Below the pieces are notes generated by a model, which had not been told where the DNA came from, made no database searches, and saw nothing but the letters and a program-made list of their open reading frames with translations. Positions 1,055 through 15,043 of a DNA stretch of 15,043 nucleotides are shown here, in pieces. This stretch comes from Myxococcales bacterium. Its GTDB lineage: Bacteria; Myxococcota; Polyangia; Fen-1088. Each line of letters starts with the position of its first letter. Position 1 is the stretch's first letter. The stretch spans positions 16,625 through 31,667 of the forward strand of contig PMBY01000420.1 in assembly GCA_003153875.1 (NCBI GenBank). The letters run 5' to 3'. A program made the translations under genes and the position numbers.

Positions 1055-4000
1055 ATGACACGCGTATACACGATGGCGCTGGTCATGACGGCTCTGGCGA
1101 TGGTCGGTTGCGGCGGCTCCGGATCTCGGTCGGGGGCCGGCGGAGGTGGTGATTCAGCGGCGGGCCGCATCTCGGCCAGCGGCGGTGGCCCTGGCGGCGC
1201 TGGAAGCGGCTCGGGCGGAAGTCTGAGCGGCGGCACGGTTGACGGCTCCGGCGGCGCAGGCGTTGGCGCAAGCGGCGGCACAACTGGCGGCGCTGGAAGC
1301 GGCTCGGGCGGAGGTTTGAGCGGCGGCACAGCTGGCGGTTCTGGCGGCGCAAGCACTGGCGCACGCGGCGGCACGGCCGGCGGCGCTGGAAGCGGCTCGG
1401 GCGGCGCAAGCACTGGCGCGATCGGCGGCACGGCCGGCGGCGCTGGAAGCGGCTCGAGCGGCGGCATCCGCACCGGTGGCATCGTCGCCTCGGGTGGCGC
1501 CACGGGCTCGAATGGTGGCACTCGCACCGGCGGCATCGCCGCCTCGGGCGGGGTCGCAGGTTCGACTGGAGGTACCCGCACGGGCGGCATTACCGCCTCG
1601 GGCGGCAGCAGCAGCACAGGCGGCAGTTCTGTCACCGTCGACAAGCCCATCGACCGCGACACCAGCTATGCCGATCACACCGAGGTGTCCTACTTGTCGG
1701 GTACCGGGAGCGACGACGCCGTCGACTGGAACTTCACCGTGTCGGGCGGCCGCCGCGCTGGCGTGGCGTCCACCATCCCCGTTCCCAGCAACTGGGAATT
1801 CTTCGGGTTTGGCACCTTCACCTACGGAACGGAGGGCAGCAGGAGCTCCGAGAAGGGAACCTACAGCCGGTCTTTCGACGTCCCGGCCACGTGGACGGGA
1901 CGACAGATCTTCATCGTGTTCGAAGGATCGATGACCGATACTACGGTCACCATCAACGGCAAGAGCGCAGGCCCTGTGCACCAGGGCGCGTTCTACCGCT
2001 TCCGCTACGACATCACCTCGCTGGTGAACGTGGGCGCCTCCAATCAGATCCAGGCCATCGTGGCCAAGGAATCGACTGACTCCAGCGTGAACGATGCAGA
2101 ACGCAGCGCCGACTACTGGGTGTTCGGCGGCATCTTCCGGCCCGTGTACCTGGAAGCCTATCCTACCGCCTCCATCGAGCGTCTTGCGGTGAACGCCCGC
2201 GCCGACGGCAGCCTCGCCGTGGATGTCTTCCTGCGCTCTGCCACCGAAACAGGGCAGCTCACGGCGCGGCTGTTCGATGACTCGCTGACTGCGGTCGGCA
2301 CCCCCGTTACTGCAGCGGTAACGGCCAGCCAAACCAAGGTCACATTGCAGGGAACCTTCACGGGTATCAAGCCTTGGACCGCGGAGACTCCCACCCGCTA
2401 CCGATTGGCAGTGGAACTCGCGACAGCCAGCGGGGTTCGCCACGCCGTGCGCGAGAACATCGGCTTCCGCACCATTGAAGTGAAGGCCGGCAACGGCATC
2501 TACGTCAACGGCACCAAGGTCATGCTCAAGGGCCTCACCCGTCACTGTTTCTGGCCCGAGACGGGCCGCGCCCTCAGTCGCCAGCAATCGCTCGACGACG
2601 TGCTGCTGCTCAAGAGCATGAACGTCAACGCCGTCCGCAACTCGCACTACCCGGCCGACCGGCACTTCTTCGAGTACGCCGACGCCCTTGGCCTGTACAT
2701 ACTCGACGAGCTGGCCGGTTGGCAGTCGCCCCCCTATTCCACCACTGTAGGGCGCAAGCTGATCGAGGAGATGGTCACCTTTGATGTCAACCATCCCAGC
2801 ATTCTGTTCTGGGACAACGGCAACGAAGGGGGATGGAACACGGCGCTCGACGGCGACTTCGCCCAATGGGATCCCCAGAAACGCTCCGTGCTGCACCCGC
2901 AACAGACTTTCAGCGGCATCAACGACGCTCACTACCCGACCTACTCCGCCGTCGTGAGCAGCCTGGCCGGCTCGACCCTTTTCATGCCGACCGAGTTCCT
3001 GCACGGCCTGTACGACGGGGGCGGTGGCGCTGGTCTGGAGGACTACTGGAACGCCATGCGCGCCAGCCCGCGCGGGGCGGGCGGATTCATTTGGGCGTTT
3101 ATCGACGAGGGGGTGCTGCGCGCCGACGTCAACAACACCATCGACACCAAAGGCAACCAGGCGCCCGACGGCGTGGTCGGCCCCTACCGGCAGAAAGAGG
3201 GCAGCTACTACACCATCCGGCAGCTCTGGTCGCCGGTCCGCATCTCCATGGCCAAGCTGCCCACGGGCTTCACCGGCGCCATCCCAGTGCAAAACGACTA
3301 CGCCTTCGTGGATCTCAATACTGTGTCGTTCAACTGGCAGGTCGCCCAGTTCGATGTGCGTGGCACCGGCGGTGGGCACAGCGTGATGGCCGAGGGAACC
3401 GCGCACACCGGCAGCATCGCGGCGGGCGCCAGTGGCACGCTGACCCTGCCCTTGCCGGCCAACTGGTCCACCGCCCACGCGCTTCTGCTCGATGCGACTG
3501 ATGCTGCGGGCACGCTGATCGGCCGTTGGTCGTGGGGCATTGCCTCGTCGACACAAATGCGCACGGCCATCGTGAGCACCACCAGCACGGCTGCCGCAGT
3601 TGCCACCGACGCGGCGACCGCCGTGACGGTCACAGCTGGCGGCGCGACCTACACCTTCAGCAAGACGTCCGGACAACTATCCTCGGTCACTGCCAGCGGC
3701 AAGAAATTCTCGTTGAGCAATGGCCCTGTGCTGTCCTCTGGCACCGGGACCCTGAAGTCGTTCGCCGGCGCCCAGGACGGCAATGACTACGTCGTGACCG
3801 TCACCTACACCGGCGATCTTCAGCAAGTGCTGTGGCGGATCATGGGGAATGGCTGGCTCGGCCTCACCTATCGCTATGCCCTGAACGGCAACTACGACCA
3901 CCATGGCGTGACCTTCACGTACCCTGAGGCCCAGGTGGTCGGTGCCGACTGGCTCGGGCGTGGCCCCGCGCGCGTCTACAAGAACCGCATGCAGGGACCG

Positions 4001-4366
4001 TGGCTGGATGTGTGGCAGCGCGAGAAGAACAACGCCATCACCGGCCAGGTCTGGGACTACCCCGAGTTCAAAGGTTACTACTCCGAGACCTACTGGGCAC
4101 GCCTGCGCACCAGTGAGGGCGCCATCCTGTTCGTCATCGACTCTCCCGACGTGTTCCTGCGCCTGTACACGCCTGCCAACGGCTCTTCTCCCATGACCGC
4201 CACCACCGTGTACCCCACGGGCGACATCTCGTTCCTCTACGGCATCTCGCCCATCGGCAACAAGTTCTCCGCCGCCAAGGACACCGGCCCGCAAGGCCAA
4301 CAGAATGTGGTGAACGGCACCTTCGAGGGGACGATCTGCCTGCACTTCGGCGACAGTCTGCCGTAG
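1055..4366 (+). CDS. Secreted lipoprotein glycoside hydrolase, GH2 (beta-galactosidase-like)
   Basis: The 1103-residue protein starts at an ATG placed 5 bases after AGGAGG. A short hydrophobic signal ends in AMVGC (Cys19), a lipobox-like site, followed by about 175 residues of Gly/Ser/Thr repeats. The folded part begins near residue 195 with the GH2 sugar-binding and immunoglobulin-like domains (FDVPATWTGR, TVTINGK, ADYWVFGGIFRPVYL). The TIM barrel follows (GLTRHCFWPETGRALS, NAVRNSHYPADRHFFEYAD). The NE pair in FWDNGNEGGWN makes Glu591 the probable acid/base, and Glu647 in MPTEFLHG the probable nucleophile. A C-terminal part resembles the beta-galactosidase small-chain domain (WLGRGPARVY). 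GH2 enzymes cleave beta-galactosides, glucuronides or mannosides; the substrate cannot be read here. The enzyme presumably sits on the cell surface and attacks polysaccharide. The acid/base-nucleophile spacing (56 residues) is shorter than the 76 in LacZ. Confidence 0.9.
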   Translation: MTRVYTMALVMTALAMVGCGGSGSRSGAGGGGDSAAGRISASGGGPGGAGSGSGGSLSGGTVDGSGGAGVGASGGTTGGAGSGSGGGLSGGTAGGSGGASTGARGGTAGGAGSGSGGASTGAIGGTAGGAGSGSSGGIRTGGIVASGGATGSNGGTRTGGIAASGGVAGSTGGTRTGGITASGGSSSTGGSSVTVDKPIDRDTSYADHTEVSYLSGTGSDDAVDWNFTVSGGRRAGVASTIPVPSNWEFFGFGTFTYGTEGSRSSEKGTYSRSFDVPATWTGRQIFIVFEGSMTDTTVTINGKSAGPVHQGAFYRFRYDITSLVNVGASNQIQAIVAKESTDSSVNDAERSADYWVFGGIFRPVYLEAYPTASIERLAVNARADGSLAVDVFLRSATETGQLTARLFDDSLTAVGTPVTAAVTASQTKVTLQGTFTGIKPWTAETPTRYRLAVELATASGVRHAVRENIGFRTIEVKAGNGIYVNGTKVMLKGLTRHCFWPETGRALSRQQSLDDVLLLKSMNVNAVRNSHYPADRHFFEYADALGLYILDELAGWQSPPYSTTVGRKLIEEMVTFDVNHPSILFWDNGNEGGWNTALDGDFAQWDPQKRSVLHPQQTFSGINDAHYPTYSAVVSSLAGSTLFMPTEFLHGLYDGGGGAGLEDYWNAMRASPRGAGGFIWAFIDEGVLRADVNNTIDTKGNQAPDGVVGPYRQKEGSYYTIRQLWSPVRISMAKLPTGFTGAIPVQNDYAFVDLNTVSFNWQVAQFDVRGTGGGHSVMAEGTAHTGSIAAGASGTLTLPLPANWSTAHALLLDATDAAGTLIGRWSWGIASSTQMRTAIVSTTSTAAAVATDAATAVTVTAGGATYTFSKTSGQLSSVTASGKKFSLSNGPVLSSGTGTLKSFAGAQDGNDYVVTVTYTGDLQQVLWRIMGNGWLGLTYRYALNGNYDHHGVTFTYPEAQVVGADWLGRGPARVYKNRMQGPWLDVWQREKNNAITGQVWDYPEFKGYYSETYWARLRTSEGAILFVIDSPDVFLRLYTPANGSSPMTATTVYPTGDISFLYGISPIGNKFSAAKDTGPQGQQNVVNGTFEGTICLHFGDSLP
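1199..1460. repeat. Glycine-linker minisatellite in the GH2 gene (first block)
   Basis: The motif gctggaagcggctcg recurs at 1199, 1292, 1385 and (with a following base change) 1442, giving intervals of 93, 93 and 57 bp, all multiples of three. It encodes GGAGSGSGG units. The pattern suggests in-frame duplication and contraction of linker segments. Confidence 0.8.
1460..1609. repeat. Three 54-bp tandem units in the GH2 linker (second block)
   Basis: Units start at 1460, 1514 and 1568. They encode GG-x-RTGGI-x-ASGG followed by a variable four or five residues, and the last copy is incomplete. This second, differently spaced minisatellite joins the Gly-rich linker to the folded domains. Confidence 0.75.
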
Positions 4367-4408: not shown

Positions 4409-5113
4409 ATGTGCGGCCGAATGACCCTGACGCGCGCTGATTGGGACGAGGTGCTCCTCGAACTGACGGAGACTCTTGTGCCTGCGGGCGTGACGGGCAT
4501 TCGCGCAGACGAGGGAGCCGCACCCTTCTACCGGCCGCGCTACAACGTGGCGCCGACTCAGCATCACCCGATTCTGCGTACGGGCGCTGGGCCAGCGAGG
4601 CTGGGCTTCGCCCTCTGGGGACTGCTGGCGCGCGGGCAAGGCAAGACCCCCGTCATCAACGCGCGCGCCGAGACCGTGCCGTTCAAGTCGGCCTTCCAGG
4701 ATGCGTTTGTCAGCAGACGCTGCGTGGTTCCGGCCGATGGTTTCTTCGAATGGAAGACCGGCCCTGAGGGGCGTCAGCCGCTCTGGTTCCACCGGCCTGA
4801 CGGCAAGCTGCTGCTGCTGGCTGGGCTGTTCGACGAAGAGCCGGTCACCGCGGATCACCCGGCGCGCATGCGGTTTGGGGTTCTGACCACGGCACCGAAC
4901 AGGCTTGTGGCCGCTGTGCACGACCGCATGCCGGCGCTGCTGTCCGCCAGGGAAGCCGTGGAGTGGATGGCGAAACCTGACCAGCGGCTCCTGCACCCCG
5001 CACCTGATGACCTGCTGGTGGCAACTCCGGTTTCCTTTCGCGTGAACTCGGTTCGCAACGACGATCCGGAGTGTCTGGCGCCAGCGCAGGGCGGCCAGAT
5101 GCGGCTGTTCTGA
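4409..5113 (+). CDS. SRAP-domain protein (YedK/HMCES family), abasic-site DNA-protein crosslinker
   Basis: The ATG at 4409 is chosen because removal of its Met exposes the invariant Cys2 (MCGR), which in this family forms a thiazolidine crosslink with abasic sites in single-stranded DNA. An upstream TTG at 4397 would bury that Cys. The 234-residue protein has the family signatures in order: C2, YNVAPTQ (45-51), NARAET (84-89, Asn84), GFFEW with the probable catalytic Glu114, and HDRMP with His171. These match E. coli YedK Cys2, Asn75, Glu105 and His160. The protein shields abasic sites at stalled forks and acts on DNA in the cytoplasm. It ends 42 bp before imuA, with an SOS promoter in the gap, so it is adjacent to but probably transcribed separately from the mutasome genes. 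Assignment to the family is very secure. Confidence 0.95.
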   Translation: MCGRMTLTRADWDEVLLELTETLVPAGVTGIRADEGAAPFYRPRYNVAPTQHHPILRTGAGPARLGFALWGLLARGQGKTPVINARAETVPFKSAFQDAFVSRRCVVPADGFFEWKTGPEGRQPLWFHRPDGKLLLLAGLFDEEPVTADHPARMRFGVLTTAPNRLVAAVHDRMPALLSAREAVEWMAKPDQRLLHPAPDDLLVATPVSFRVNSVRNDDPECLAPAQGGQMRLF

Positions 5114-5118
5114 CCGCC

Positions 5119-5147
5119 TTGATACTGAACTGATGTTCAGCTAGCCT
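5119..5147 (+). promoter_or_regulatory. imuA promoter (-35 TTGATA, 17-bp spacer, -10 TAGCCT)
   Basis: TTGATA (5119-5124) matches five of six -35 consensus bases. Seventeen bases later, TAGCCT (5142-5147) is a weaker -10 (T, A and the final T conserved). The SOS box fills the spacer almost completely. A start site 6-8 bases after the -10 would fall at about 5154, practically on the GTG of imuA, implying a leaderless or near-leaderless mRNA. The hexamers are visible; promoter activity is inferred. Confidence 0.55.
5125..5140. promoter_or_regulatory. SOS box (LexA operator) of imuA-imuB-dnaE2
   Basis: CTGAACTGATGTTCAG is a 16-bp sequence with perfect 6-bp inverted arms around TGAT. It contains GAAC-N4-GTTC, the core of Gram-positive-type SOS boxes, and its CTGAAC/GTTCAG arms agree with the outer part of the motif reported for Myxococcus LexA. 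It ends 15 bp before the imuA start codon and lies between the -35 and -10. imuA-imuB-dnaE2 cassettes are classic LexA targets, so repression by LexA is strongly supported. Confidence 0.85.
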
Positions 5148-5155
5148 ATGCGATC

Positions 5156-5890
5156 GTGTCTGCTGCCTCCTTGCTCGACCTGCTCCCGGCTGCGTTGTCG
5201 GCCCATCTCATTCCGGCGCGTCGCCTGGAAGAGAAAGGCGGAGACAAGCGCGGGTTCGTGGCGACGGCCTTGCCTCAACTGGACGCGCTTCTGGGTGGAG
5301 GCTGGCCGCGCGGCGTGGTGAGCGAGTTGGCCGGGCCGCGCTCGTCAGGCAGGACATCGATTTTGCACGCCTCGCTGGCGGGCGCGCTGAAGGGTGGCGG
5401 CGTGGCGGCGTTGGTGGACGCCGAGCAGGCTTTTGATGCTCGACTGGCGGCTCGGGCCGGCGTGCCGCTCGCGCGATTGTTGTGGGTGCATGCGCCGGGC
5501 ACGCAAGCGCTACGCGCCGCTGAGTTGCTGATCGACGCTGGGGGATTCGATCTGGTCGCGCTGGACATAGGCGACAAGAATCCACGATTGCCCGACGCTG
5601 CGTGGCTGCGACTGCGCCACGGGGCAGAACGCCAGCGGACAGTGGCGCTGGTGGTGGCAGCCGCGCCGCTGGTTCGCGCCTTCGCATCGGTGGCGGTGAT
5701 CCTGTCCCGGCAGGGTGTGGACTTCGGCGAGCGACAAGATGCTCGCCCAGCCACTCGTATTTGCGGCGTGACTCCTGCGTTGCTGACCGGGCTGCGAAGC
5801 AACGTCGCGCTCGGCCGTGGCCGCGCGCCTGCTGACGGCGCCGATCATTGTTCCATCGAGTTTTCGGTGATGGCGCGGCGCAAGCGATAG
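5156..5890 (+). CDS. imuA: ImuA, RecA-like accessory factor of the DnaE2 mutasome
   Basis: The 244-residue protein begins with GTG at 5156, the first possible codon after the SOS promoter. It resembles a shortened RecA core: QLDALLGGGWPRGVVSELAG precedes a P-loop-like GPRSSGRTS (60-68), compared with GPESSGKTT in RecA. VAALVDAEQAFDARLAARAG matches the RecA segment around CAFIDAEHALD, and FDLVALDIGD occupies the Walker B position. The P-loop Lys is replaced by Arg66, so ATP use may be altered or lost. ImuA proteins partner ImuB and DnaE2 in SOS-induced translesion synthesis. The next gene starts 21 bp downstream on the same strand and is probably co-transcribed. Identity rests on both sequence and gene order. 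Confidence 0.9.
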   Translation: MSAASLLDLLPAALSAHLIPARRLEEKGGDKRGFVATALPQLDALLGGGWPRGVVSELAGPRSSGRTSILHASLAGALKGGGVAALVDAEQAFDARLAARAGVPLARLLWVHAPGTQALRAAELLIDAGGFDLVALDIGDKNPRLPDAAWLRLRHGAERQRTVALVVAAAPLVRAFASVAVILSRQGVDFGERQDARPATRICGVTPALLTGLRSNVALGRGRAPADGADHCSIEFSVMARRKR

Positions 5891-5911
5891 ACGTGCTCGT
5901 GCGAGGTGTGC

Positions 5912-7390
5912 GTGTCCAGCATTGCGTGCGTTCATGCCCCCGACATCGCGTTGCAGGCGATGCTGCGCGGTCTTGCCGACGCGGGGGAGCGCACGGGACC
6001 ATTTGCTCTGGCGGCAGGACCAGGAGGCCGTGCGTCCGTGCTGGCCGTGACAGCTGCTGCCGCGAACGTCCGTCCCGGCATGACCGTGGCACAGGCAATG
6101 GCCACGCTGCCGTCGCTGCGGGTGGTGACGACGCGCCAGCCTGATGTGGACGCGGCTGCGGCGGCGTTGGCCGATCTGGGGTTGGGGTTTGCTCCACGGG
6201 TCGATACAGAGCCTGAGCGGGTCTTCTTTCAGGCCGGAGATCTGGGTCAGCTTTACCCGGATCTATCCGCCGTGGCCCACGCTGTGCGGACGCGCGCTGC
6301 TCGGCTGGGACTGGAAGTGCGCGTGGGTATCGCCGCCTCAAAGGGTTTGGCGCGCATCGCGTGCCGCACAGCCGAGATCGCCATCGTGCCCGCAGCGCCC
6401 GCAGCGGCCCGCACCTTCCTCGCGCCGTTGCCGCTGGCCATGCTGGCACCAGCCCCTGAAATCGCCGAGGCACTGGCGCGCTGGGGATTGCGCACGGTCG
6501 GGGAACTCGCGCGTCTGCGGCCAGAGGAAGTGGCGGTGCGACTGGGCGCGGCCGGAGCGCGCCTGGTGCGGCTGGCGCGCGCGCAGGACGACGAGGCGTT
6601 TCTGCCGCAAGCACCGGCCGATGCCGTCGAGGAAGGCACCGAACTCGACTACGCCCTCGACTCGCTCGAACCCCTTGTTTTTGTGTTGCGCGGGCTGATC
6701 GATCGGGCGCTGGCACGGCTGGCGTGTCGCGGGCTGGCCTGCGCCGGGCTGACCTTGCGTCTCATGGTGGAGCCGCGCAGCTTCGAGATTCGCGAAGTGC
6801 CGCTGCAATCGCCCACTCGCGAATCGGGAATTCTCTTGCAGCTCGTGCGGCTGGAGCTGTCGCGCCGGGCTCCCTCGGCGCCCGTGACCGGGATGACCAT
6901 CCTGGTTCTTCCGGCGCGGGTGCGCGCGACTCAACTCGATATGTTGCGGCCCAATGGCCCGGCACCGGATCGGCTGGCAGCGACCTTGGCGCGGCTGAGC
7001 GCCTTGGTGGGACCCGAACACGTGGGTACGCCGCGAGTCGCGGACACCTGGCGCGAGGAAGCGATGGCGATCGATCGTCCGGTTCTTGATACCGGCGAGA
7101 TGAGCGCGGTTTGCGCCGGTCCCAGCGATGCGGGTGCTCTAGGCATTCGCCGTTTCCGTCCGCCGCAAGAAGTGGAAGTGCTCATGGAGCGCAAAGGTCC
7201 CGCGGCGTTTCGCGGAAAGGAAACTGCGGCGCGCATCCTGATCGCCGCTGGTCCTTACCGCATCAGCGGCGAATGGTGGACCGGCCAGGCCTTCCATCGT
7301 GAGTACTGGGACGTCCACGCTTCCGACGGCGCCGTGTATCGCATGCACCAGGATGGCGAGAAGTGGTTTCTCGATGGCTACTATGACTGA
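5912..7390 (+). CDS. imuB: ImuB, catalytically inactive Y-family polymerase, clamp-binding hub
   Basis: GTG at 5912 (492 residues) is preferred over GTG at 5906, because the GAGG at 5903-5906 would overlap the latter but sits five bases before 5912. The Y-family scaffold is present: N-terminal palm (ACVHAPDIALQ), RPGMTVAQA, IAASKGLARIAC, and a helix-hairpin-helix region (LRTVGELARLRPEEVAVRLG). The acidic catalytic motif is missing: where active enzymes have SIDEA, this one reads PERVFFQAG. Residues 341-345 (QLDML) fit the beta-clamp-binding motif at the place where ImuB proteins carry QLxLF-type sequences. The C-terminal domain (GEWW, WDVHASDGAVYR, WFLDGYYD) is typical of ImuB. It would recruit DnaE2 to the clamp. 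Its 3' end overlaps dnaE2. Confidence 0.92.
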   Translation: MSSIACVHAPDIALQAMLRGLADAGERTGPFALAAGPGGRASVLAVTAAAANVRPGMTVAQAMATLPSLRVVTTRQPDVDAAAAALADLGLGFAPRVDTEPERVFFQAGDLGQLYPDLSAVAHAVRTRAARLGLEVRVGIAASKGLARIACRTAEIAIVPAAPAAARTFLAPLPLAMLAPAPEIAEALARWGLRTVGELARLRPEEVAVRLGAAGARLVRLARAQDDEAFLPQAPADAVEEGTELDYALDSLEPLVFVLRGLIDRALARLACRGLACAGLTLRLMVEPRSFEIREVPLQSPTRESGILLQLVRLELSRRAPSAPVTGMTILVLPARVRATQLDMLRPNGPAPDRLAATLARLSALVGPEHVGTPRVADTWREEAMAIDRPVLDTGEMSAVCAGPSDAGALGIRRFRPPQEVEVLMERKGPAAFRGKETAARILIAAGPYRISGEWWTGQAFHREYWDVHASDGAVYRMHQDGEKWFLDGYYD

Positions 7391-10300
7391 CGCTTCTCCA
7401 CCCTATATTGAGCTGCGCTGCCGCTCGGCCTTCAGTTTTCTCGACGGGGCTTCGCTGCCTGAGGATCTGGTCGAGGCGGCTGCCAGCTTGGGACACCGGG
7501 CGCTGGCCCTTGCCGATCGGGGTGGGCTTTCCGGTGCGCCACGCTTTTTCAAAGCCGCGCGCAAACTGGGTCTGCAACCCATTGTGGGCGCCGAGATCGC
7601 GATGGAAGCGCCAGGAGCGCAGGTACCGCCGTTGCTGCTGCTGGTGGAAAACCGCACCGGCTACCGCAATTTGTGCCGCCTGCTCACGACCATGAAAGCG
7701 GGACGGCCCAAAGGAGACGGGGCAGCCAGTTATGCGCTGCTGGCCGAACATGCCGAGGGACTGATTGCGCTAGCCGGTGCGAGCCCACGCGACGATGTGG
7801 CTGAACTGGCCGCTGTCTTTCCTGCCGGGCATTTGTACCTGGAGGTGCAACGCCACCTGGATGCCGTGCAGGAGCATCGCAATCGAGCTGTGCTGGCGCT
7901 GGCTGCCGCGCACCACCTGTCCGTGGTGGCAACCAATGACGTGCGCTACGCCTCGGCCCAACTCCGACGCGTTCACGACGTGCTGACTTGCGTGCGCGCT
8001 GGTCTGACTGTGGACGAGATTGGCCGCCGCCTGCCGTGCAACGCCGAACGCTTTCTCAAGTGTCCCGCAGAAATGGCCGCGCTGTTTCGCGATCTGCCGG
8101 CGGCGCTGCACGCAACCCGCACGATCGCCGAGCGTTGCACCTTCACCCTGGCCGACCTGGGCTACACATTCCCGCGCTATCCCGTGCCCGAGGGTGAGAC
8201 ACAGCAGAGTTTTCTTGAAAAGATGACCTGGCAGGGCGCCAGCGGACGCTACCGTCCCGTGAGCGCCAAGGTGCGGGCCCAGCTCGAACACGAGCTGACT
8301 GTGATTGGAAAACTGGATCTGGCCGGGTATTTTCTGGTGGTCTGGGACATCGTGCGCTTTGCGCGCGAGCGGAACATCCTGGTGCAGGGGCGCGGCTCGG
8401 CCGCCAACAGCGCCACCTGCTACGCCCTCGGCATCACCGCCGTCGATCCCGTGGGCATGGAGCTGCTGTTCGAGCGTTTTCTGTCCGAGGAGCGAGTCAA
8501 GAGCGCCAGCAACGCAACCGACCGCATGCCCGACATCGATCTGGACCTGCCATCAGGCGAACAGCGCGAGGCGGTGATTCAGCATGTGTACCGCAAGTAC
8601 GGCGCGCATGGCGCGGCCATGACCGCCAACGTGATCTGTTACCGGCCGCGCCTGGCCGTGCGCGACTGCGGCCACGCCCTGGGTTTTGCCGAGGAGCAAC
8701 TGGCTCGCATGGCCCGTCACCTGCCGGGCTGGATCGTGCCCGAGGACAGGCCGCTGGGCGCATTCATCGCCGAGGCGGGCTTTCCCCCTGACGATGCGCG
8801 CACCAAGCTGCTGGCCGAGATCGCTACATCAATGCTGAACCTGCCTCGCCACCTCGGGCAACACTCGGGCGGCATGGTGATCGCTGCTGGCCGCCTCGAC
8901 GAAATCGTGCCGCTGGAGCCGGCGCGCATGCCCGGTCGAGTGGTCGTGCAATGGGATAAGGACGACTGCGCGGACCTGGGCATCGTCAAGGTGGACCTGC
9001 TGGGTCTGGGCATGCTGGCCGTGCTGGAGGAATCAGCCGCGCTGTTGCGCAAACACCACGGCATCGAGATCGACTACGCCCATTTGCCGCCCGACGATCC
9101 AGCGGTGTACCGCATGCTTCGCGCTGCCGACACAGTGGGCGTGTTCCAGGTCGAGTCTCGCGCGCAGATGGCTACGCTGCCGCGCATGCGACCGGAACGC
9201 TTTTACGATCTGGTGGTCGAGGTGGCCATCATCCGACCTGGTCCCATTGTCGGGAAGATGGTGAATCCGTATTTGGCCCGGCGCAACGGTCAGCAGCCCG
9301 TGCGCTATCCCCACCCTTCACTGGAACCCATCTTGCGGCGCACGCTGGGCATTCCTCTATTTCAAGAACAACTGATCCGCATCGCCATGACCGCGGCTGG
9401 CTTCAGTGGCGGTCAGGCCGAAGAGCTGCGCCGGGCGATGGGGTTCAAACGATCGGTCGAGCGCATGAAAGTGATCGAAGCCGAGCTGCGCGCCGGCATG
9501 TCGCGCAAGGGAATTGCCCAGAGGGCGCAGGAGGAGATCGTCCAGGGGATCAAGTCTTTCGCGCTTTATGGATTTCCCGAATCACACGCGGCCTCGTTCG
9601 CTCTCATCGCCTACGCCTCGGCCTATCTCAAGGCGCATCATTCGGCAGCCTTTACCTGCGCGCTGCTCAACAATTTTCCAATGGGCTTTTACCACCCGGC
9701 GACATTGGTCAAGGACGCCCAACGCCACGGGGTTCCTTGCCTGTCCGTGGACGTGACTGGATCGCAATGGGAGTGCACGCTGGAGGACGATCGCAACACC
9801 ACTGCCGTTCGTCTGGGGCTGAAGTACCTGCGCGGGCTGCGCGCGGAAGTGGCTCAACGCTTGGTCGCGGCCCGTCCCTTCTCGTCGCTGGGCGATCTGT
9901 GCCGCCGCGTGGAACTGAATGCTGGCGAGCGCGCCACGCTGGCCGAGGTCGGCGCCTTTGCGGCTCTGGGCGGCACGCGCCGGCAGGTGATGTGGCAACT
10001 GGAGGCGTTCGGGCGCTCGGGTGAATTGTTCGCGGGTGTGGAATCCGGGGATGCGCAGACAGACAGCCCTTTGCCTGAAATGAATCCCGGCGAGGAGGTC
10101 GCCGCTGATTTCCGCGGCACGGGCCTGACAGCAGGGCCACACCCCATGTCGTTTGTGCGAGAGCGTTTGCAAGCGCGCGGCGTTCTCTCGGCACACGAAC
10201 TGCAACGGACAGCGAAAGGCCAGCGCGCGCTGGTGGCCGGGCTGGTTATCGTGCGCCAGCGACCGTCCACGGCCAAGGGATTGGTGTTCGTGACCGTCGA

Positions 10301-10499
10301 GGACGAAACCGGTTTTGCCAACGCCGTCGTGCCTGCGGCTCAGTTCGACGAGCATCGCGCCCTGCTGGTCAGCGCCCGCGCCCTGGTCATGGGCGGCGTG
10401 GTCCAGCAGAACCAGGGCGTGACTTCACTCAAAGCCGATCGCTTCTGGCCCCTGGACAGCGCCGAGGCTGCCCGAGACATCTCGCACGATTTCAGATAA
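7383..10499 (+). CDS. dnaE2: DnaE2, error-prone C-family DNA polymerase III alpha subunit
   Basis: The ATG at 7383 overlaps the imuB stop by 8 bp and gives 1038 residues, a usual DnaE2 length. ATG 7374 is a possible alternative, and the longer frame from 7299 is unlikely. Order of domains: N-terminal PHP domain (YIELRCRSAFSFLDGAS at 8-24), polymerase palm, helix-hairpin-helix region, and C-terminal OB fold (ALVAGLVIVRQRPSTAKG). Catalytic aspartates are Asp384 and Asp386 in PDIDLD and Asp538 in KVDLLGLGML; the 386-538 spacing equals that of E. coli DnaE (403-555). GRGSAANSATCYALGI is the conserved palm signature. The PHP metal-binding HxH is RxR here, so no proofreading or phosphatase activity is expected. 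It performs mutagenic lesion bypass with ImuA and ImuB and is expected to be SOS-induced as the last gene of the operon. Confidence 0.95.
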   Translation: MTDASPPYIELRCRSAFSFLDGASLPEDLVEAAASLGHRALALADRGGLSGAPRFFKAARKLGLQPIVGAEIAMEAPGAQVPPLLLLVENRTGYRNLCRLLTTMKAGRPKGDGAASYALLAEHAEGLIALAGASPRDDVAELAAVFPAGHLYLEVQRHLDAVQEHRNRAVLALAAAHHLSVVATNDVRYASAQLRRVHDVLTCVRAGLTVDEIGRRLPCNAERFLKCPAEMAALFRDLPAALHATRTIAERCTFTLADLGYTFPRYPVPEGETQQSFLEKMTWQGASGRYRPVSAKVRAQLEHELTVIGKLDLAGYFLVVWDIVRFARERNILVQGRGSAANSATCYALGITAVDPVGMELLFERFLSEERVKSASNATDRMPDIDLDLPSGEQREAVIQHVYRKYGAHGAAMTANVICYRPRLAVRDCGHALGFAEEQLARMARHLPGWIVPEDRPLGAFIAEAGFPPDDARTKLLAEIATSMLNLPRHLGQHSGGMVIAAGRLDEIVPLEPARMPGRVVVQWDKDDCADLGIVKVDLLGLGMLAVLEESAALLRKHHGIEIDYAHLPPDDPAVYRMLRAADTVGVFQVESRAQMATLPRMRPERFYDLVVEVAIIRPGPIVGKMVNPYLARRNGQQPVRYPHPSLEPILRRTLGIPLFQEQLIRIAMTAAGFSGGQAEELRRAMGFKRSVERMKVIEAELRAGMSRKGIAQRAQEEIVQGIKSFALYGFPESHAASFALIAYASAYLKAHHSAAFTCALLNNFPMGFYHPATLVKDAQRHGVPCLSVDVTGSQWECTLEDDRNTTAVRLGLKYLRGLRAEVAQRLVAARPFSSLGDLCRRVELNAGERATLAEVGAFAALGGTRRQVMWQLEAFGRSGELFAGVESGDAQTDSPLPEMNPGEEVAADFRGTGLTAGPHPMSFVRERLQARGVLSAHELQRTAKGQRALVAGLVIVRQRPSTAKGLVFVTVEDETGFANAVVPAAQFDEHRALLVSARALVMGGVVQQNQGVTSLKADRFWPLDSAEAARDISHDFR

Positions 10500-10955: not shown

Positions 10956-12155
10956 CTACTTGGGACTCAGACTCATCACAGTGCCGCTGTAGGAGTTGGT
11001 CCAGAAGACGCTGGTGGAATCCACGGCGATGCCAGAAGCACCGGACTGCCCGGAGGCCAGCGTGGTCAGGGTGCCGCCGCCCCGAAGCACTTTCACAACC
11101 GTCCCACTCCCCTGGTTGGTCCAGTAGACGCAGGTGGCGTCCACGGCGATGTCAGTGGGGAGGCCCTGCCCGGAGGCGAGCGTGGTGGGAGCGCCACCGC
11201 TCAGAGCTACCCTCATGACCGAACCGGAGTTGTCCTCGGCGCTGCCGTTGAAGATCGTGCTCCGGTCAATCCAGTAGACACTGGTGGCATCTACGACGAC
11301 CGCGGTGGGGTCGGACTGCCCGGAGGCGAGCGTGATGGGACGGCCACCGCCCAGTTGTACCTTCATCACAGTGCCGGCATTGTAGCCTTCCGTCCAGTAG
11401 ACACTGGCTCCGTCCACGGCGATACGATTGGGGGAGAATTGCCCGGAGGCGAGTGTGATGGGAGTGCCACCGTCCAGCGGTACCTTCATCACTGGACCAA
11501 TGCCGTCACCGTTAGTCCAGTAGACGCTCGTGGTGTCCACGGCGATGCCAACCACGTAGGACTGCCCGGAGGCAAGCGTGGTGGGAGCGCCACCACCCAC
11601 AGGCACCTTCATCACAGTATCGGTATCGCTCCCGTTGTTGGTCCAGTAGACGCTGGTAGTGTCCACGGCGATGTCAGAGGGGAATTGGCCAGACGCAAGC
11701 ATGGTGGGCGTTCCACCGCCTTTGGGTATCTTCATCACGGTGCCGTCGTAGTCATCCGTCCAGTAGACGCTGGTGGTGTCCACAGCGATATGCCGGGGCT
11801 GGGACCTCCCGGTGGCAAGCGTGACGAGACAGCGACCGGCCGTACACTGAGCCGTGGACGGCGAGAGCGCCGAGCAGACATTCCCGCAGAATCCGCAGTT
11901 GTCGTTGTCAGTTTGCGTGTTTGGGCAGCCGCCATTGCCAGCGACAGCCGTGCTGGCGACACCGCCAGTCTTGGTGACACCACCGGGGGTGGTGATACCG
12001 GCCGTGCCGGTGCCACCGCCGATGCCAGCCGAGCCTTCGCCGGTCCCGTCCCCTCCCGACCCGCCGCCTACCCCGGACACGCCGTGCAGGAGCCCAGACC
12101 GCCCGCACGCACAGAGCAGGAAGAGGATCCAGAGCGGAGCGGACCTTAGTCTCAT
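10956..12155 (-). CDS. Lipoprotein with Gly linker, Cys module and a seven-bladed beta-propeller
   Basis: ATG at 12155 follows an AAGGG about seven bases upstream and opens a clear signal peptide (LWILFLLCAC, lipid Cys17), giving 399 residues. The frame stays open upstream into the transketolase region but has no signal there. A linker rich in Gly and Thr follows. Next comes a Cys-rich segment (CPNTQTDNDNCGFCGNVC and two further Cys) of the type frequent in myxobacterial surface proteins. The rest is seven repeats of about 41 residues with consensus LASGQ-x(4)-IAVD-x-TSVYWT-x(5-8)-GTVMKVPxGGG. Seven such units should close one beta-propeller. Repeat 5 carries an extra loop of about 10 residues. 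The propeller probably binds protein or sugar outside the cell; no catalytic motif is visible and the ligand is unknown. Confidence 0.88.
   Translation of the reverse strand: MRLRSAPLWILFLLCACGRSGLLHGVSGVGGGSGGDGTGEGSAGIGGGTGTAGITTPGGVTKTGGVASTAVAGNGGCPNTQTDNDNCGFCGNVCSALSPSTAQCTAGRCLVTLATGRSQPRHIAVDTTSVYWTDDYDGTVMKIPKGGGTPTMLASGQFPSDIAVDTTSVYWTNNGSDTDTVMKVPVGGGAPTTLASGQSYVVGIAVDTTSVYWTNGDGIGPVMKVPLDGGTPITLASGQFSPNRIAVDGASVYWTEGYNAGTVMKVQLGGGRPITLASGQSDPTAVVVDATSVYWIDRSTIFNGSAEDNSGSVMRVALSGGAPTTLASGQGLPTDIAVDATCVYWTNQGSGTVVKVLRGGGTLTTLASGQSGASGIAVDSTSVFWTNSYSGTVMSLSPK
10965..11830. repeat. Seven tandem 120-150-bp units encoding the propeller blades
   Basis: The DNA motif around gcccggaggcgagcgtg recurs at 11051, 11171, 11321, 11444, 11567, 11690 (diverged) and 11810 (diverged). 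The intervals are 120, 150, 123, 123, 123 and 120 bp, all multiples of three. Neighbouring units retain long stretches of identical DNA, which points to recent duplication or homogenisation within the gene. Confidence 0.85.
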
Positions 12156-12251: not shown

Positions 12252-13157
12252 ATGACTGAAACCATTTGGGCGGACGAGGTGCGGCTGGCGGCTCGGCACA
12301 TCAGGCGTCGCGTGCTGGAACATACGCTCAAGCACAACGGCGGCTACATGAGTCAGGCGTGCTCCTCGGCTGAGATTCTCTCCACCCTGTATCTCAAGGT
12401 GATGAACCTGGCGCCGGTTGACAAGCCGCTTCGGCCTAAACCCTTCCCTGGCGTCCCCTCGCGCAGCAACCGCGGGTACTTCACCGGCGCGGAATTCAAC
12501 GGACGACCGCTGGCGCACCAGGATCGATTCTTTCTTTCCCCAGCCCACTACGCGTTGGTGCTCTACGCGGTCCTCATCGAAACCGGCCGCATGGACGCTT
12601 CCGGCTTGGACGATTTCAACCGCGACGGATCTTCCGTGGAAATGATCGGCGCCGAGCACTCCCCTGGGATGGAAGTGACCGCCGGATCGCTCGGCCAGTG
12701 CCTGTCGCAGGCCGCGGGCATCGCGTTGGGCCGTCGCCTCAAGGGCGACAGCGGCCGCACCTGGGTGTTCATGAGCGACGGCGAGTTCCAAATCGGCCAA
12801 ACCTGGGAAGCCCTGCAGGCCGCCTCGTTCCACCGGCTGAACCGTCTGGCGGTCTACGTGGACGTCAACCGCCAGCAATGCGACGGGCTGGTGACCAACG
12901 TGATGCACGTGGAGCCCTTGCAGGAGCGCCTGCGGGCTTTTGGCTGGCGAGCCGAGCGCGTGGACGGGCACGATCCCGAGGCGCTAGCGGCGCCCGCCGC
13001 TCGGCAAGACGACGGCCGGCCCCTGGCAGTCCTTTGCGACACCGATCCCTGCCGCGGGCTGCCCCTGCTTGGCCAGAACGCCCCCAAACTGCACTACCTG
13101 CGTTTCAAAACGCCCGACGAACGCGAGACCTATCGCCGCGCCCTGGAGCTTCTGTGA
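12252..13157 (+). CDS. Transketolase-like N-terminal subunit (ThDP/Mg-binding half of a split transketolase)
   Basis: The 301-residue protein matches the first half of transketolase. GSLGQCLSQAAGIALGRRLKG (145-165) precedes the ThDP-Mg motif: Asp176 in SDGEFQIGQTWEA and Asn206 in DVNRQQCDG (normally GDGE...DYN). The N-terminal NGGYMSQACSSAEILSTLY (29-47) replaces the usual GHxGxSLSxxEIL. The end also differs: the common KGKG...WHG segment is replaced by PCRGLPLLGQNAPKLHYLRF. Such changes around the substrate channel suggest a substrate other than xylulose-5-phosphate/ribose-5-phosphate. It needs the downstream subunit for an active site, and the stop/start overlap (TGATG) implies translational coupling. 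The gene is divergent from the propeller lipoprotein gene. A role in branched-sugar phosphate cleavage, as for apulose-4-phosphate transketolase AptA, is possible but unproven. Confidence 0.85.
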   Translation: MTETIWADEVRLAARHIRRRVLEHTLKHNGGYMSQACSSAEILSTLYLKVMNLAPVDKPLRPKPFPGVPSRSNRGYFTGAEFNGRPLAHQDRFFLSPAHYALVLYAVLIETGRMDASGLDDFNRDGSSVEMIGAEHSPGMEVTAGSLGQCLSQAAGIALGRRLKGDSGRTWVFMSDGEFQIGQTWEALQAASFHRLNRLAVYVDVNRQQCDGLVTNVMHVEPLQERLRAFGWRAERVDGHDPEALAAPAARQDDGRPLAVLCDTDPCRGLPLLGQNAPKLHYLRFKTPDERETYRRALELL

Positions 13158-14164
13158 TGGAAATGCTCTCGCGCGTACACGCCAAGAATCTGGTCACTTG
13201 GGCCAAGGACAAGCCGCAGGTCTTGCTGCTCTCGGCGGACCTTACCAGTTCCTGCGAGGCCGACGCCTTCAGCGCCGCGTACCCCAACCGGTTCTTCTCG
13301 ATGGGCGTCGCCGAGCAGAACATGCTGTCGTTTGCTGCCGGCCTCGCGCGCGAAGGATTCATGCCCCTGGTGCACACCTTCGCGGTTTTCATCTACCGCC
13401 GCGCCTACGACCAGGTGGCCATGAGCGTGGCCTACGCCAACGCAAACGTGAAGATGTTCGGCTTTTTGCCCGGCCTCACCACGCCGGGCGGCGCCACTCA
13501 CCAGGCGGTGGAGGACGTGGCGCTCATGCGCACCCTGCCCAACATGACGGTGCTGGAGACGGGCGACGCCACCGAGGTGGAGAGCGTGCTGGACGTGATG
13601 GCCGCCGTCCACGGCCCCGTGTACATCCGCATGTTGCGAGGGGAGTTGCCCCGGCTATTCCCTGCCTCCGAGCCCATGAAACTGGACCAGCCGCGCGTGC
13701 TCTCGCGCGGGAATGACCTGACCGTGCTTTCCAGCGGACTGTGCACCGAGGAAGCCTTGAAGGCGGTTTCCCTCTTGAAACTGCGGGGCGTTTCCGTCGA
13801 ACACTTGCACATCTCGACCCTCAAGCCCTGCAACCATCCCATCCTGCTCGAGGCCCTTGCCAAGCCGAAGCACGGCGTTTTGACCCTGGAGAATCATCTG
13901 ACGACAGGCGGCCTGGGCTCGATCGCGGCCGAGAAAATCGCCGAGAACGGCCTGGGAAAGAAACTGATCCGTCTGGGCCTCCAGGACACTTTTTCGCACG
14001 GAGCTTCCAAGGGGTACCTGATGCGCGAGCATGGAATCGACGCTCTGGGGCTCATCCAGGCCGCTGAGCAGGCACTTGGGACCCAGCTCAATATCCGGTC
14101 CGAGGACATCGCCCAAGTTCGCGTCGAGGCGGTGCACAGCGCAGCCAAAGCCGAAGGACTCTGA
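13157..14164 (+). CDS. Transketolase-like C-terminal subunit (pyrimidine-binding half of a split transketolase)
   Basis: The start is the ATG at 13157, which shares its first base with the preceding stop codon (TGATG). The frame is open further upstream but that part is a shadow of the N-subunit gene. The 335-residue product has the pyrimidine-binding domain with the cofactor-activating Glu53 in GVAEQNM. GGATHQAVEDVALMRTLPN (112-130) includes the conserved His116. The C-terminal transketolase domain follows (LTVLSSGLCTEEALKAV, GVSVEHLHISTLKP, ENHLTTGGLGS). Together with the upstream subunit it should form an alpha2beta2 ThDP enzyme transferring a two-carbon ketol unit. The RLP gene starts 10 bp downstream, indicating one transcript. 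Confidence 0.88.
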   Translation: MEMLSRVHAKNLVTWAKDKPQVLLLSADLTSSCEADAFSAAYPNRFFSMGVAEQNMLSFAAGLAREGFMPLVHTFAVFIYRRAYDQVAMSVAYANANVKMFGFLPGLTTPGGATHQAVEDVALMRTLPNMTVLETGDATEVESVLDVMAAVHGPVYIRMLRGELPRLFPASEPMKLDQPRVLSRGNDLTVLSSGLCTEEALKAVSLLKLRGVSVEHLHISTLKPCNHPILLEALAKPKHGVLTLENHLTTGGLGSIAAEKIAENGLGKKLIRLGLQDTFSHGASKGYLMREHGIDALGLIQAAEQALGTQLNIRSEDIAQVRVEAVHSAAKAEGL

Positions 14165-14174
14165 GAGAAGTCTC

Positions 14175-15043
14175 ATGACGACCAAGTCGAACCAAACCTT
14201 GGACCGCTTCTTGGTTCGCTACCGACTCACGGGCGACGAGACTGAGGCCCGCGCCAAAGCCGCAGACCTTTGCCTGGAGCAAACCGTCGAGTGCCCGGCC
14301 GATATTCTCCCCAAGGGATTCATCCCCGAGCAGGTGGTGGGCCGCCTGGAATCCTTGCAGAAATCCTGTGCGCCCGGCGCGCCGGCGAGTGAAGCGCTGG
14401 TGTCCTTCCTCAACGACTCCATCGGCGGCGAACTCACCCAGCTATGTAACGTCCTTTTCGGCAACATCAGCCTCAAGAAAGGATTCCGGCTCTCGCGTCT
14501 GGAGGACGGCGGGACTCTCTGGAGAAAGTTCAAAGGGCCGCGCTTCGGCCGTGAGGGTCTCCGGGCCCTGCTAGGCGAGCCGCAGCGGCCCCTGCTTTCC
14601 ACCGCCGTGAAACCCATGGGCCTGTCGGCCGAGGAATTGGCCCGCCTGGCAGGCCGCTTCGCCGCAGGAGGCATCGACATCATCAAGGACGACCACGGCC
14701 TGGCCAATCAGCCATTTGCTTCGTTCGCCGAGCGCGCCGAGCGTTGCGCGCAAGCCGTGCGCAAGGCCGCAGCCCCGACGGGACGTACGATTCTCTATGC
14801 CCCCAACGTGACAGCGCCTGCGGGAGAGGTGCACGAGCGGGCGCGCTTCGCCAAAAAAGCCGGCGCGGGTGCCTTGCTGATCTGTCCCGGGCTGACGGGC
14901 CTCGATGCCATGCGCGCCTTGGCCGACGACGATGCGCTCGGGTTGCCCATCCTGGCGCACCCCGCATTCCTGGGAAGTTTCGTGACCAGCCCGGACAACG
15001 GCATCTCTCCCTATGCCTTGTTCGGCCAGCTCATGCGGCTGGC
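14175..15043 (+). CDS. RuBisCO-like protein (RLP, form IV), 3'-truncated by window edge
   Basis: The ATG at 14175 is 10 bp after the transketolase stop, with GAGAGAAG upstream. 289 codons are visible to the edge, about two thirds of a RuBisCO large chain. The N-terminal domain has EQTVECP (35-41) at the position of RuBisCO Glu60, and GN at 96-97 corresponds to Asn123. The barrel begins with STAVKPMGLS: Lys146 aligns with Lys175, but the second Lys (177) is missing. In GGIDIIKDDHG the carbamylated Lys201 and Asp203 equivalents are kept (Lys171, Asp173), while Glu204 is His174. LAHPAFLGSF keeps His294 (His262) but replaces Arg295 with Pro263. These changes exclude normal carboxylase chemistry. 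Known RLPs are enolases or isomerases of methionine salvage, or decarboxylases and hydrolases of apionate catabolism. The operon with a split transketolase favours sugar catabolism. Confidence 0.88.
   Translation, partial: MTTKSNQTLDRFLVRYRLTGDETEARAKAADLCLEQTVECPADILPKGFIPEQVVGRLESLQKSCAPGAPASEALVSFLNDSIGGELTQLCNVLFGNISLKKGFRLSRLEDGGTLWRKFKGPRFGREGLRALLGEPQRPLLSTAVKPMGLSAEELARLAGRFAAGGIDIIKDDHGLANQPFASFAERAERCAQAVRKAAAPTGRTILYAPNVTAPAGEVHERARFAKKAGAGALLICPGLTGLDAMRALADDDALGLPILAHPAFLGSFVTSPDNGISPYALFGQLMRL

Follow-up and report, generated by a model that had tools for sequence, protein, structure and literature searches.

What do a split transketolase and a RuBisCO-like protein (RLP) do together in one operon? 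The question is raised by a 15,043-nucleotide stretch of a Myxococcales genome (GenBank assembly GCA_003153875.1, contig PMBY01000420.1, positions 16,625 to 31,667; referred to here as the window), which ends in three genes on its forward strand. The first (TKN; 12252 to 13157; 301 aa; PF00456, 78 bits) encodes the N-terminal, thiamine diphosphate (ThDP)/pyrophosphate-binding half of a split transketolase-like enzyme, and the second (TKC; 13157 to 14164; 335 aa; PF02779, 105 bits; PF02780, 56 bits) encodes its pyrimidine-binding and C-terminal half. The TKN stop and the TKC start have one base in common (TGATG). The RLP gene (14175 to 15043; PF00016, 86.5 bits) starts with the ATG at 14175, 10 bp past the TKC stop, and is truncated by the window end after 289 codons (relatives, ~380 aa), so that its family scores come from a partial protein. 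These coordinates and Pfam matches bear out the layout described in an earlier note on this DNA, i.e., two transketolase halves with overlapping stop and start and an RLP 10 bp downstream, all on one strand. None of the three proteins reached the curated NCBIfam cut-off for any model. Our best explanation, which we regard as probable, is that the three genes form the lower half of an oxygen-independent salvage of 5'-methylthioadenosine (MTA)/methylthioribose, in which the split ThDP enzyme replaces a cupin.

Conservation of the three-gene unit and its partners

A scan of genome contigs with an RLP profile yielded at least 80 loci, and all counts out of 80 refer to the loci listed. Neighbors were counted by six-frame profile searches; longest-open-reading-frame (ORF) gene calls overlooked genes in GC-rich loci. 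TKN and/or TKC (TK) lay within 10 kb of the RLP in 58/80 loci, and both did in 54/80. The order TKN-TKC-RLP, on one strand and with operon spacing, was directly observed in 51/80. Where the sequence extended more than 2.2 kb beyond the RLP on its upstream side (66 loci), TK was present in 52, and a TKC fragment was cut by the contig start in two further loci (L058 and L072). Because TK lay near the RLP in 58 of the 80 loci and in the same order in 51, the pairing goes beyond chance. The TK-linked hosts include Myxococcota, Chloroflexota, Bacillota, Spirochaetota, Nitrospirota, Planctomycetota, and Pseudomonadota, as well as Calditrichota, Acidobacteriota, Elusimicrobiota, and Deinococcota. A protein search with the RLP found homologues up to 93% identical (full-length P0001, 93%, 381 aa; another, 88%, from a Polyangia metagenome-assembled genome [MAG]), and a comparison of the RLP and TKN match lists by eye showed at least 13 contigs of identical length in both. 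We conclude that the split transketolase and the RLP very probably form a conserved pair acting in one route. This part of the earlier note stands, whereas its link of the pair to apiose/apionate catabolism does not (see below).

The closest relative (L001) encodes an RLP and a TKC that are 92% and 93% identical, respectively, to those of the window, and inspection by eye placed a DnaE2-like ORF upstream of them. The next two genes in L001 lie on the opposite strand, which makes the RLP the most likely end of the operon; one matches a TonB-plug receptor and the other a solute-binding protein, and neither is the DUF1537-type kinase that the earlier note had suggested looking for downstream. Elsewhere in the set, TKN and TKC fall within a single 720-codon open frame that contains a run of N (L014:5659-7818), possibly a fused form, and an LsrF-like class I aldolase lies within 10 kb of the RLP in 5/80 loci (L023, L045, L051, L054, and L074).

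RLPs of the DeepYkr type isomerize 5-methylthioribulose-1-phosphate to 1-methylthioxylulose-5-phosphate, which a cupin then converts to 1-deoxyxylulose-5-phosphate (DXP) and methanethiol; this RLP-cupin organization has been published for Rhodospirillum rubrum and Rhodopseudomonas palustris (PMC5893883, PMC4958253). A tree of 96 rows comprised 92 RLPs (62 TK-linked, including that of the window, 13 cupin-linked, and 17 with neither partner) and four references, and its bootstrap was not fully settled. R. rubrum and R. palustris were not included by name, nine alphaproteobacterial RLP-cupin pairs of like organization were, and L002 and L009 were left out by a filter for stops or many X. All 92 RLPs clustered together (100/99), and the four references (OiaX, another kinase-linked RLP, RbcL, and MtnW) stayed outside. 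The RLP of the window thus belongs with the cupin-linked, DeepYkr-type RLPs and apart from OiaX, MtnW, and RuBisCO. The cupin-linked RLPs were scattered within this group, and the well-supported branches require at least three changes of the cupin label. PDB entry 3qfw, which we take to be an R. palustris protein, matched a cupin-linked RLP at 434.6 bits.

The partial window protein scored 65.2 bits against the OiaX model of NCBIfam (cut-off, 700) and 155 of 409 and 123 of 514 bits against the two MtnW models. A role as MtnW, the 2,3-diketo-5-methylthiopentyl-1-phosphate enolase, was rejected: the RLP is below both cut-offs and separate from MtnW in the tree, and MtnB was above its cut-off in only 3 of 49 relatives' genomes. 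The earlier note had counted tight clustering with methionine-salvage enzymes, or downstream genes unrelated to carbohydrate metabolism together with a gene order that is not conserved in relatives, as evidence against its proposal. The RLP does group with methionine-salvage RLPs, namely those of the cupin-linked type and not MtnW, and the three-gene order is conserved. The window RLP carries the motif KDDH (residues 171 to 174; 14685 to 14696, forward strand), which was found in 92/92 RLPs of the tree, versus KDDE in the 4/4 references (RuBisCO, MtnW, and OiaX among them). As a universal mark, the motif is weakened by variants outside the tree, i.e., KEDH (L154, L158, L162, and L181), RDDH (L135), KDDQ (L174), and KEDD (L176).

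The partner beside the RLP (within 10 kb) was TK in 58/80 loci, a cupin in 4/80, neither in 18/80, and both in 0/80; the window RLP has TKC on its upstream side, and its downstream side is cut. Among 289 alphaproteobacterial genomes, 12 strong RLP matches divided into nine with a cupin, two with TK (one being the L070 genome again), and one at a contig end. Among 341 Clostridia genomes, six of the seven strong matches had TK (four already among the 80) and one had neither partner; 10 weaker RLP loci carried KDDE or KDDI. Of the 30 loci from 282 Myxococcota genomes (35 with a match), 11 had this TK clade beside the RLP, a second TK clade took its place in 7, no locus had a cupin, and 12 had neither partner. 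TK and cupin occurred together in no locus examined in any of these four sets. A cupin methylsulfurylase was found within 10 kb in 0/58 TK-linked loci, and the gene downstream of the L001 RLP is not a cupin. The exchange of partners is an observation on the loci themselves. On the genome scale, cupin profile matches occurred in 6 of 8 RLP genomes without a linked TK versus 2 of 41 with TK (p = 5e-5). The TK clade was absent from all eight of the former (best score, 273 bits) and present once per genome in 7/7 TK genomes asked (540 to 620 bits; two pieces in G004).

Two further patterns were seen around these partners. Seven Myxococcota loci (L160, L163, L166, L170, L172, L173, and L175) carry KDDH-type RLPs with neither transketolase nor cupin within the 1.5-kb flanks. 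In two other loci (L082:6409-8223 and L024:5501-7130), a cupin is followed directly by an O-acetylhomoserine (OAH) sulfhydrylase, and the L082 genome (G033) also has a TK-RLP operon (L056).

Methionine-salvage genes in operons and host genomes

Linkage to the upper genes of MTA salvage was directly observed in relatives. MtnA was encoded within 10 kb of the RLP in 13/80 loci, MtnK in 12, and either in 14 (13 TK-linked loci and L058). MtnA lay directly upstream of TKN in seven loci, including those of Clostridium ljungdahlii, C. drakei, Alicyclobacillus, and Pseudovibrio. The neighbors in C. ljungdahlii are MtnK (433 bits; cut-off, 275), MtnA (427 bits; cut-off, 279), and a ribose-type ABC transporter, and the window TKC is 66% identical to the TKC of this mtnK-mtnA operon.

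A tblastn search of plasmids with the window TKC matched 488 records; among the best 40, 24 were at 52 to 58% identity, and the next was at 42%. We took 12 plasmid regions from these 24 (L124 is unannotated and was judged by profile only). Eight of the 12 (L123, L124, L177, L178, L182, L184, L185, and L186) carry mtnK-mtnA-TKN-TKC-RLP; they are mostly from Rhizobiaceae, so they are not independent. The plasmid of Ponticoccus alexandrii (L181) has the order PNP, amidohydrolase, mtnA, bisC-like S/N-oxide reductase (901 of 1018 bits), TKN, TKC, and RLP. In Marinovum and Paracoccus (L179 and L180), TKN-TKC lies beside a molybdopterin oxidoreductase, a xylulokinase-like FGGY kinase, a Zn-dehydrogenase, and a class II aldolase; the oxidoreductase of L180 is bisC-like (845 of 1018 bits), and that of L179 is so by annotation only. 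A reductase of the sulfoxide type would fit a thioether substrate, and the xylulokinase may mean that the ThDP enzyme acts on a compound resembling xylulose-5-phosphate. Vibrio nigripulchritudo (L176) has an FGGY kinase gene after TKN-TKC-RLP, and the 14 kb examined there contain no mtn gene.

Some of these neighbors are of interest in their own right. The BisC-like reductases adjoining the split transketolase in marine Rhodobacterales (L181:3286-5562, L180:3150-5462, and L179:3195-5465) may reduce sulfoxides of MTA or of methylthio-sugars. FGGY-like carbohydrate kinases beside the RLP with no close mtn gene (L176 and, by eye, L037 and L068) possibly provide another entry to the ketose-1-phosphate. 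A neighbor cluster of pyridoxal phosphate enzymes (c7) was discarded as a signal, and its counts carry no weight: it mixes OAH sulfhydrylases (L024, L059, and L082, over the TIGR01326 cut-off), cystathionine-type enzymes (L005 and L072), and others (L062).

The methionine-salvage complement was examined in 49 RLP genomes (from 50 of the 80 loci) and 14 control genomes. MtnA was above its cut-off in 46/49 RLP genomes versus 8/14 controls, and MtnP in 40/49 versus 4/14. The corresponding counts for MtnB were 3/49 and 2/14, and those for acireductone dioxygenase (ARD) were 6/49 (above 100 bits only in the three MtnB genomes) and 2/14. RLP hosts thus mostly hold the upper part of MTA salvage without the canonical lower part. 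Among close Myxococcota relatives, G001 and G008 carry MtnP and MtnA side by side and have no MtnB or ARD match; two others (G002 and G012) also carry the canonical genes.

The ThDP enzyme, its predicted reaction, and the competing readings

The split enzyme itself stands in a dedicated clade of its own by sequence: the 33 TKC rows sampled join on one long stem (100/100), and none of the 14 other transketolase and DXP synthase (DXS) rows falls among them. The best solved relatives are 6yak for TKN, the N-terminal component of a split-chain transketolase (125 bits), and 6yaj for TKC (208 bits). TKC also matches the DXS model (160 bits, below the cut-off). TKN keeps the canonical transketolase motif SDGE (residues 175 to 178; 12774 to 12785, forward strand), the ThDP/metal site in this family, as do 43/43 cluster members, and the catalytic Glu of G-x-x-E-Q is invariant in 15/15 aligned sequences. 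The His and Asp of the segment SH/TH...GEDG, present in human TKT and in the Carboxydothermus hydrogenoformans enzyme, are not kept in the clade; in their place stands FLPG...TPGG (TKC residues 103 to 112; 13463 to 13492, forward strand), with FLPG and PGG invariant in 15/15 aligned TKC and PGGxTHQ in 52/53 cluster members. The GH near the N terminus of TKN is replaced by GY. The lost residues presumably correspond to human H416 and D424 (TKC) and H37 (TKN), which would contact phosphate, hydroxyl, and aldehyde groups. These changes suggest a substrate other than the ordinary pentulose phosphates, without naming which.

Loss of the His/Asp pair is weakened as a unique mark, since L183, a split transketolase without an RLP, likewise lacks the pair. 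A second Myxococcota split-transketolase clade (L157, L159, L161, L164, L165, L167, and L169; motif IPGLTSRLGPTHQ) lies beside KDDH-type RLPs and may represent an independent or sister recruitment; in these seven loci (motif SRLGPTHQ), the pair is lost in another way. The AlphaFold model of TKN has a mean pLDDT of 86.4. That of TKC has a mean of 69.7, with residues 106 to 116 (the FLPG...PGG loop) below 50, so we claim no active-site geometry.

With high confidence, we assign the operon to MTA salvage. MtnP and MtnA, whose genes lie outside the operon in close relatives, or MtnK and MtnA, encoded in the same operon in others, would supply 5-methylthioribulose-1-phosphate. The RLP, judging from its family, would 1,3-isomerize this compound to 1-methylthioxylulose-5-phosphate, as is known for cupin-linked RLPs, and this product is quite probably the substrate of the ThDP enzyme. 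The ThDP carbanion would attack its C2, cleavage of the C2-C3 bond would free glyceraldehyde-3-phosphate, and CH3-S-CH2-C(OH)=ThDP would remain. The bound methylthio-C2 unit would then most likely expel methanethiol(ate) by beta-elimination, giving acetyl-ThDP, which would end as acetyl-phosphate, acetyl-coenzyme A (CoA), or acetate. Phosphoketolase expels water (hydroxide), and sulfoacetaldehyde acetyltransferase expels sulfite, from the analogous position. We therefore propose, tentatively and at somewhat less than even probability, that the split enzyme is a ThDP-dependent methylthio-pentulose-phosphate lyase ("thio-phosphoketolase") yielding glyceraldehyde-3-phosphate, methanethiol, and an acetyl unit. 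Glutathione, which the cupin route uses (PMC5893883), would not be required for such a step, nor would oxygen or a reductant.

Several observations weigh against this explanation. The Asp lost from TKC (presumably human D424) normally contacts a hydroxyl that is still present in the proposed substrate, and the methylthio group does not explain its loss. We found no assay for any enzyme of this ThDP clade. No mtn gene lies in the operon of the window's lineage, two plasmids (L179 and L180) have TKN-TKC with no RLP adjoining, 10 of the 18 loci with neither partner have an upstream flank longer than 2.2 kb, and neither partner was found in 12 of the 30 Myxococcota loci (1.5-kb flanks, some at contig ends). 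The absence of MtnB is by itself weak evidence: many genomes are incomplete MAGs, and 36/49 had an MtnB match when E 0.001 was the limit (almost all of these were under the cut-off and aldolase-like), as did 11/14 controls. OAH sulfhydrylase is needed for methanethiol use and was above its cut-off in 30/41 TK genomes, and also in 9/14 controls; it was dropped as a nondiscriminating sign of methanethiol release. The genome-wide cupin contrast is partly circular, in that three of the eight genomes without a linked TK supplied the three seeds of the profile. Without the seed genomes it becomes 3/5 versus 2/41 (p = 0.006), and with weak matches (81 to 90 bits) also dropped, 1/5 versus 2/41 (p = 0.30). 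One of the two TK genomes with a cupin is the closest relative, G001 (181 bits, on a separate short contig with no RLP). Because this contrast was weakened, we lowered our confidence in the explanation slightly, to the level given above.

The strongest competing reading, less probable than methanethiol release though a serious candidate, retains the pathway and the substrate but has the C2 unit protonated to 2-(methylthio)acetaldehyde alongside glyceraldehyde-3-phosphate, or passed to an aldose, so that the sulfur stays on the C2 fragment. This would be plain transketolase chemistry with no elimination step, in keeping with the TKC model, which by fold is nearest to the C. hydrogenoformans split transketolase (6yaj), and in the dihydroxyacetone phosphate (DHAP) shunt the same precursor gives rise to 2-methylthioacetaldehyde (PMC10986504). 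The operon would then, however, spend an additional isomerase on a C2 product that the DHAP shunt reaches with one enzyme, and the cupin that is seemingly replaced releases methanethiol (PMC4958253).

In an unlikely variant, the pair would serve the disposal of 5'-deoxyadenosine through a 5-deoxyribose branch, with the RLP converting 5-deoxyribulose-1-phosphate to DXP and the ThDP enzyme cleaving DXP to glyceraldehyde-3-phosphate and acetaldehyde. Anaerobes make much 5'-deoxyadenosine, and many of the hosts are anaerobes; the sub-cut-off match of TKC to the DXS model (160 bits) is also in line with DXP, and the DHAP shunt serves 5'-deoxyadenosine as well as MTA (PMC10986504). Against it, the swap partner is a methylsulfurylase-type cupin, and a methylthio substrate is likewise suggested by the bisC-family-like proteins of L180 and L181 (with a similar annotation in L179). 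The pair may conceivably act on both methylthio and 5-deoxy substrates.

It is quite improbable that the operon was re-purposed in the window's lineage for another phosphoketose fed by other kinases. V. nigripulchritudo, where an FGGY kinase but no mtn gene was seen within 14 kb, and Marinovum and Paracoccus, with TKN-TKC beside a xylulokinase-like kinase and no RLP, offer precedents, but close Myxococcota relatives keep MtnP and MtnA in their genomes, and the window TKC retains 66% identity to that of the C. ljungdahlii mtnK-mtnA operon.

The new or composite apiose/apionate pathway of the earlier note, which would join an OiaX/OiaT-like RLP to an AptA/AptB-like transketolase, is scarcely credible and was rejected: the likeness in layout, a split transketolase and an RLP together, is outweighed by the OiaX score (65 of 700 bits), by the fully supported position of the RLP outside the OiaX branch, and by the neighbors, often mtnK and mtnA in longer operons. 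The OiaX reference locus (L125) has a four-carbon acid sugar kinase; none was annotated in 11 plasmid regions with (incomplete) gene tables, and neither of the two genes after the RLP of L001 is one.

Neighboring genes and comparison with known systems

Upstream of TKN lie a divergent lipoprotein gene and a DNA repair cassette, both of which seem unrelated to TKN-TKC-RLP. The lipoprotein-like gene (10956 to 12155, reverse strand) has repeats (VDTTSVYWTN...) and a DUF5050 match and begins ~100 bp upstream of TKN. The cassette (4409 to 10499) encodes an SRAP peptidase, an ImuA-like protein, an ImuB-like protein, and DnaE2 consecutively, as in error-prone repair, and the ImuB and DnaE2 ORFs overlap. 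A large glycoside hydrolase family 2 (GH2) beta-galactosidase-like protein with a Gly/Ser-rich, low-complexity N terminus is encoded at 1055 to 4366 (exo-beta-1,4-galactosidase model, 838 of 1700 bits). One scan of viral contigs gave no relative that would indicate a viral origin.

Among the matches listed, we found no report in the open-license literature that joins a transketolase to MTA salvage; subscription papers may mention one. The nearest paper mentioning both subjects concerns 5-deoxyadenosine salvage (PMC8102628), and a preprint that discusses C. ljungdahlii and methionine salvage has neither "rubisco" nor "RLP" in its main text (PMC10418091). How MTA is recycled where the oxygen-dependent pathway is missing, as in anaerobes but also in other bacteria, is only partly understood, and no function has been assigned to many groups of RLPs. 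If correct, our explanation adds another RLP-linked, oxygen-independent branch of methionine salvage across about a dozen phyla and a new use of thiamine chemistry that releases methanethiol, a volatile sulfur gas. It would also account for a split-transketolase clade now annotated as pentose-phosphate or DXP-synthase enzymes. A widespread gene pair annotated as "transketolase," "DXS N-terminal domain," and "RuBisCO large chain" thereby gains a concrete, directly testable substrate.

The operon resembles several characterized systems in part. AptA/AptB is a two-subunit apulose-4-phosphate transketolase. The combination of OiaX/OiaT and AptA/AptB likewise comprises an RLP and a two-subunit transketolase but differs in tree position, neighbors, and family score; no NCBIfam model named for AptA/AptB was among the matches of the window proteins. 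In universal methionine salvage with MtnW (Bacillus type), the RLP also acts after MtnA, whereas here the MtnW cut-offs were not reached and MtnB was below its cut-off or absent in 46/49 genomes. The C. hydrogenoformans split transketolase (6yaj and 6yak) has the same two-chain layout, fold, ThDP motif, and Glu of G-x-x-E-Q; at ~34% identity (fold alignment), the enzyme described here differs in having FLPG...PGG for TH...GEDG and GY for the GH of the N-terminal half. The DHAP shunt (MtnP/MtnK, MtnA, and a class II aldolase) is alike in its upper steps and its oxygen-independent sugar cleavage, but one aldolase acts there in place of an RLP and a ThDP enzyme, and glyceraldehyde-3-phosphate is predicted here instead of DHAP. 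The MTA-isoprenoid shunt of R. rubrum and R. palustris (MtnP, MtnA, a DeepYkr RLP, and a cupin) has the same upper genes as the genomes of the window's relatives and an RLP of the same group. Here, a split transketolase-like ThDP enzyme and not a cupin stands beside the RLP, and the product need not be DXP. On the best reading, the new element with respect to that shunt is the split ThDP enzyme in the place of the cupin.

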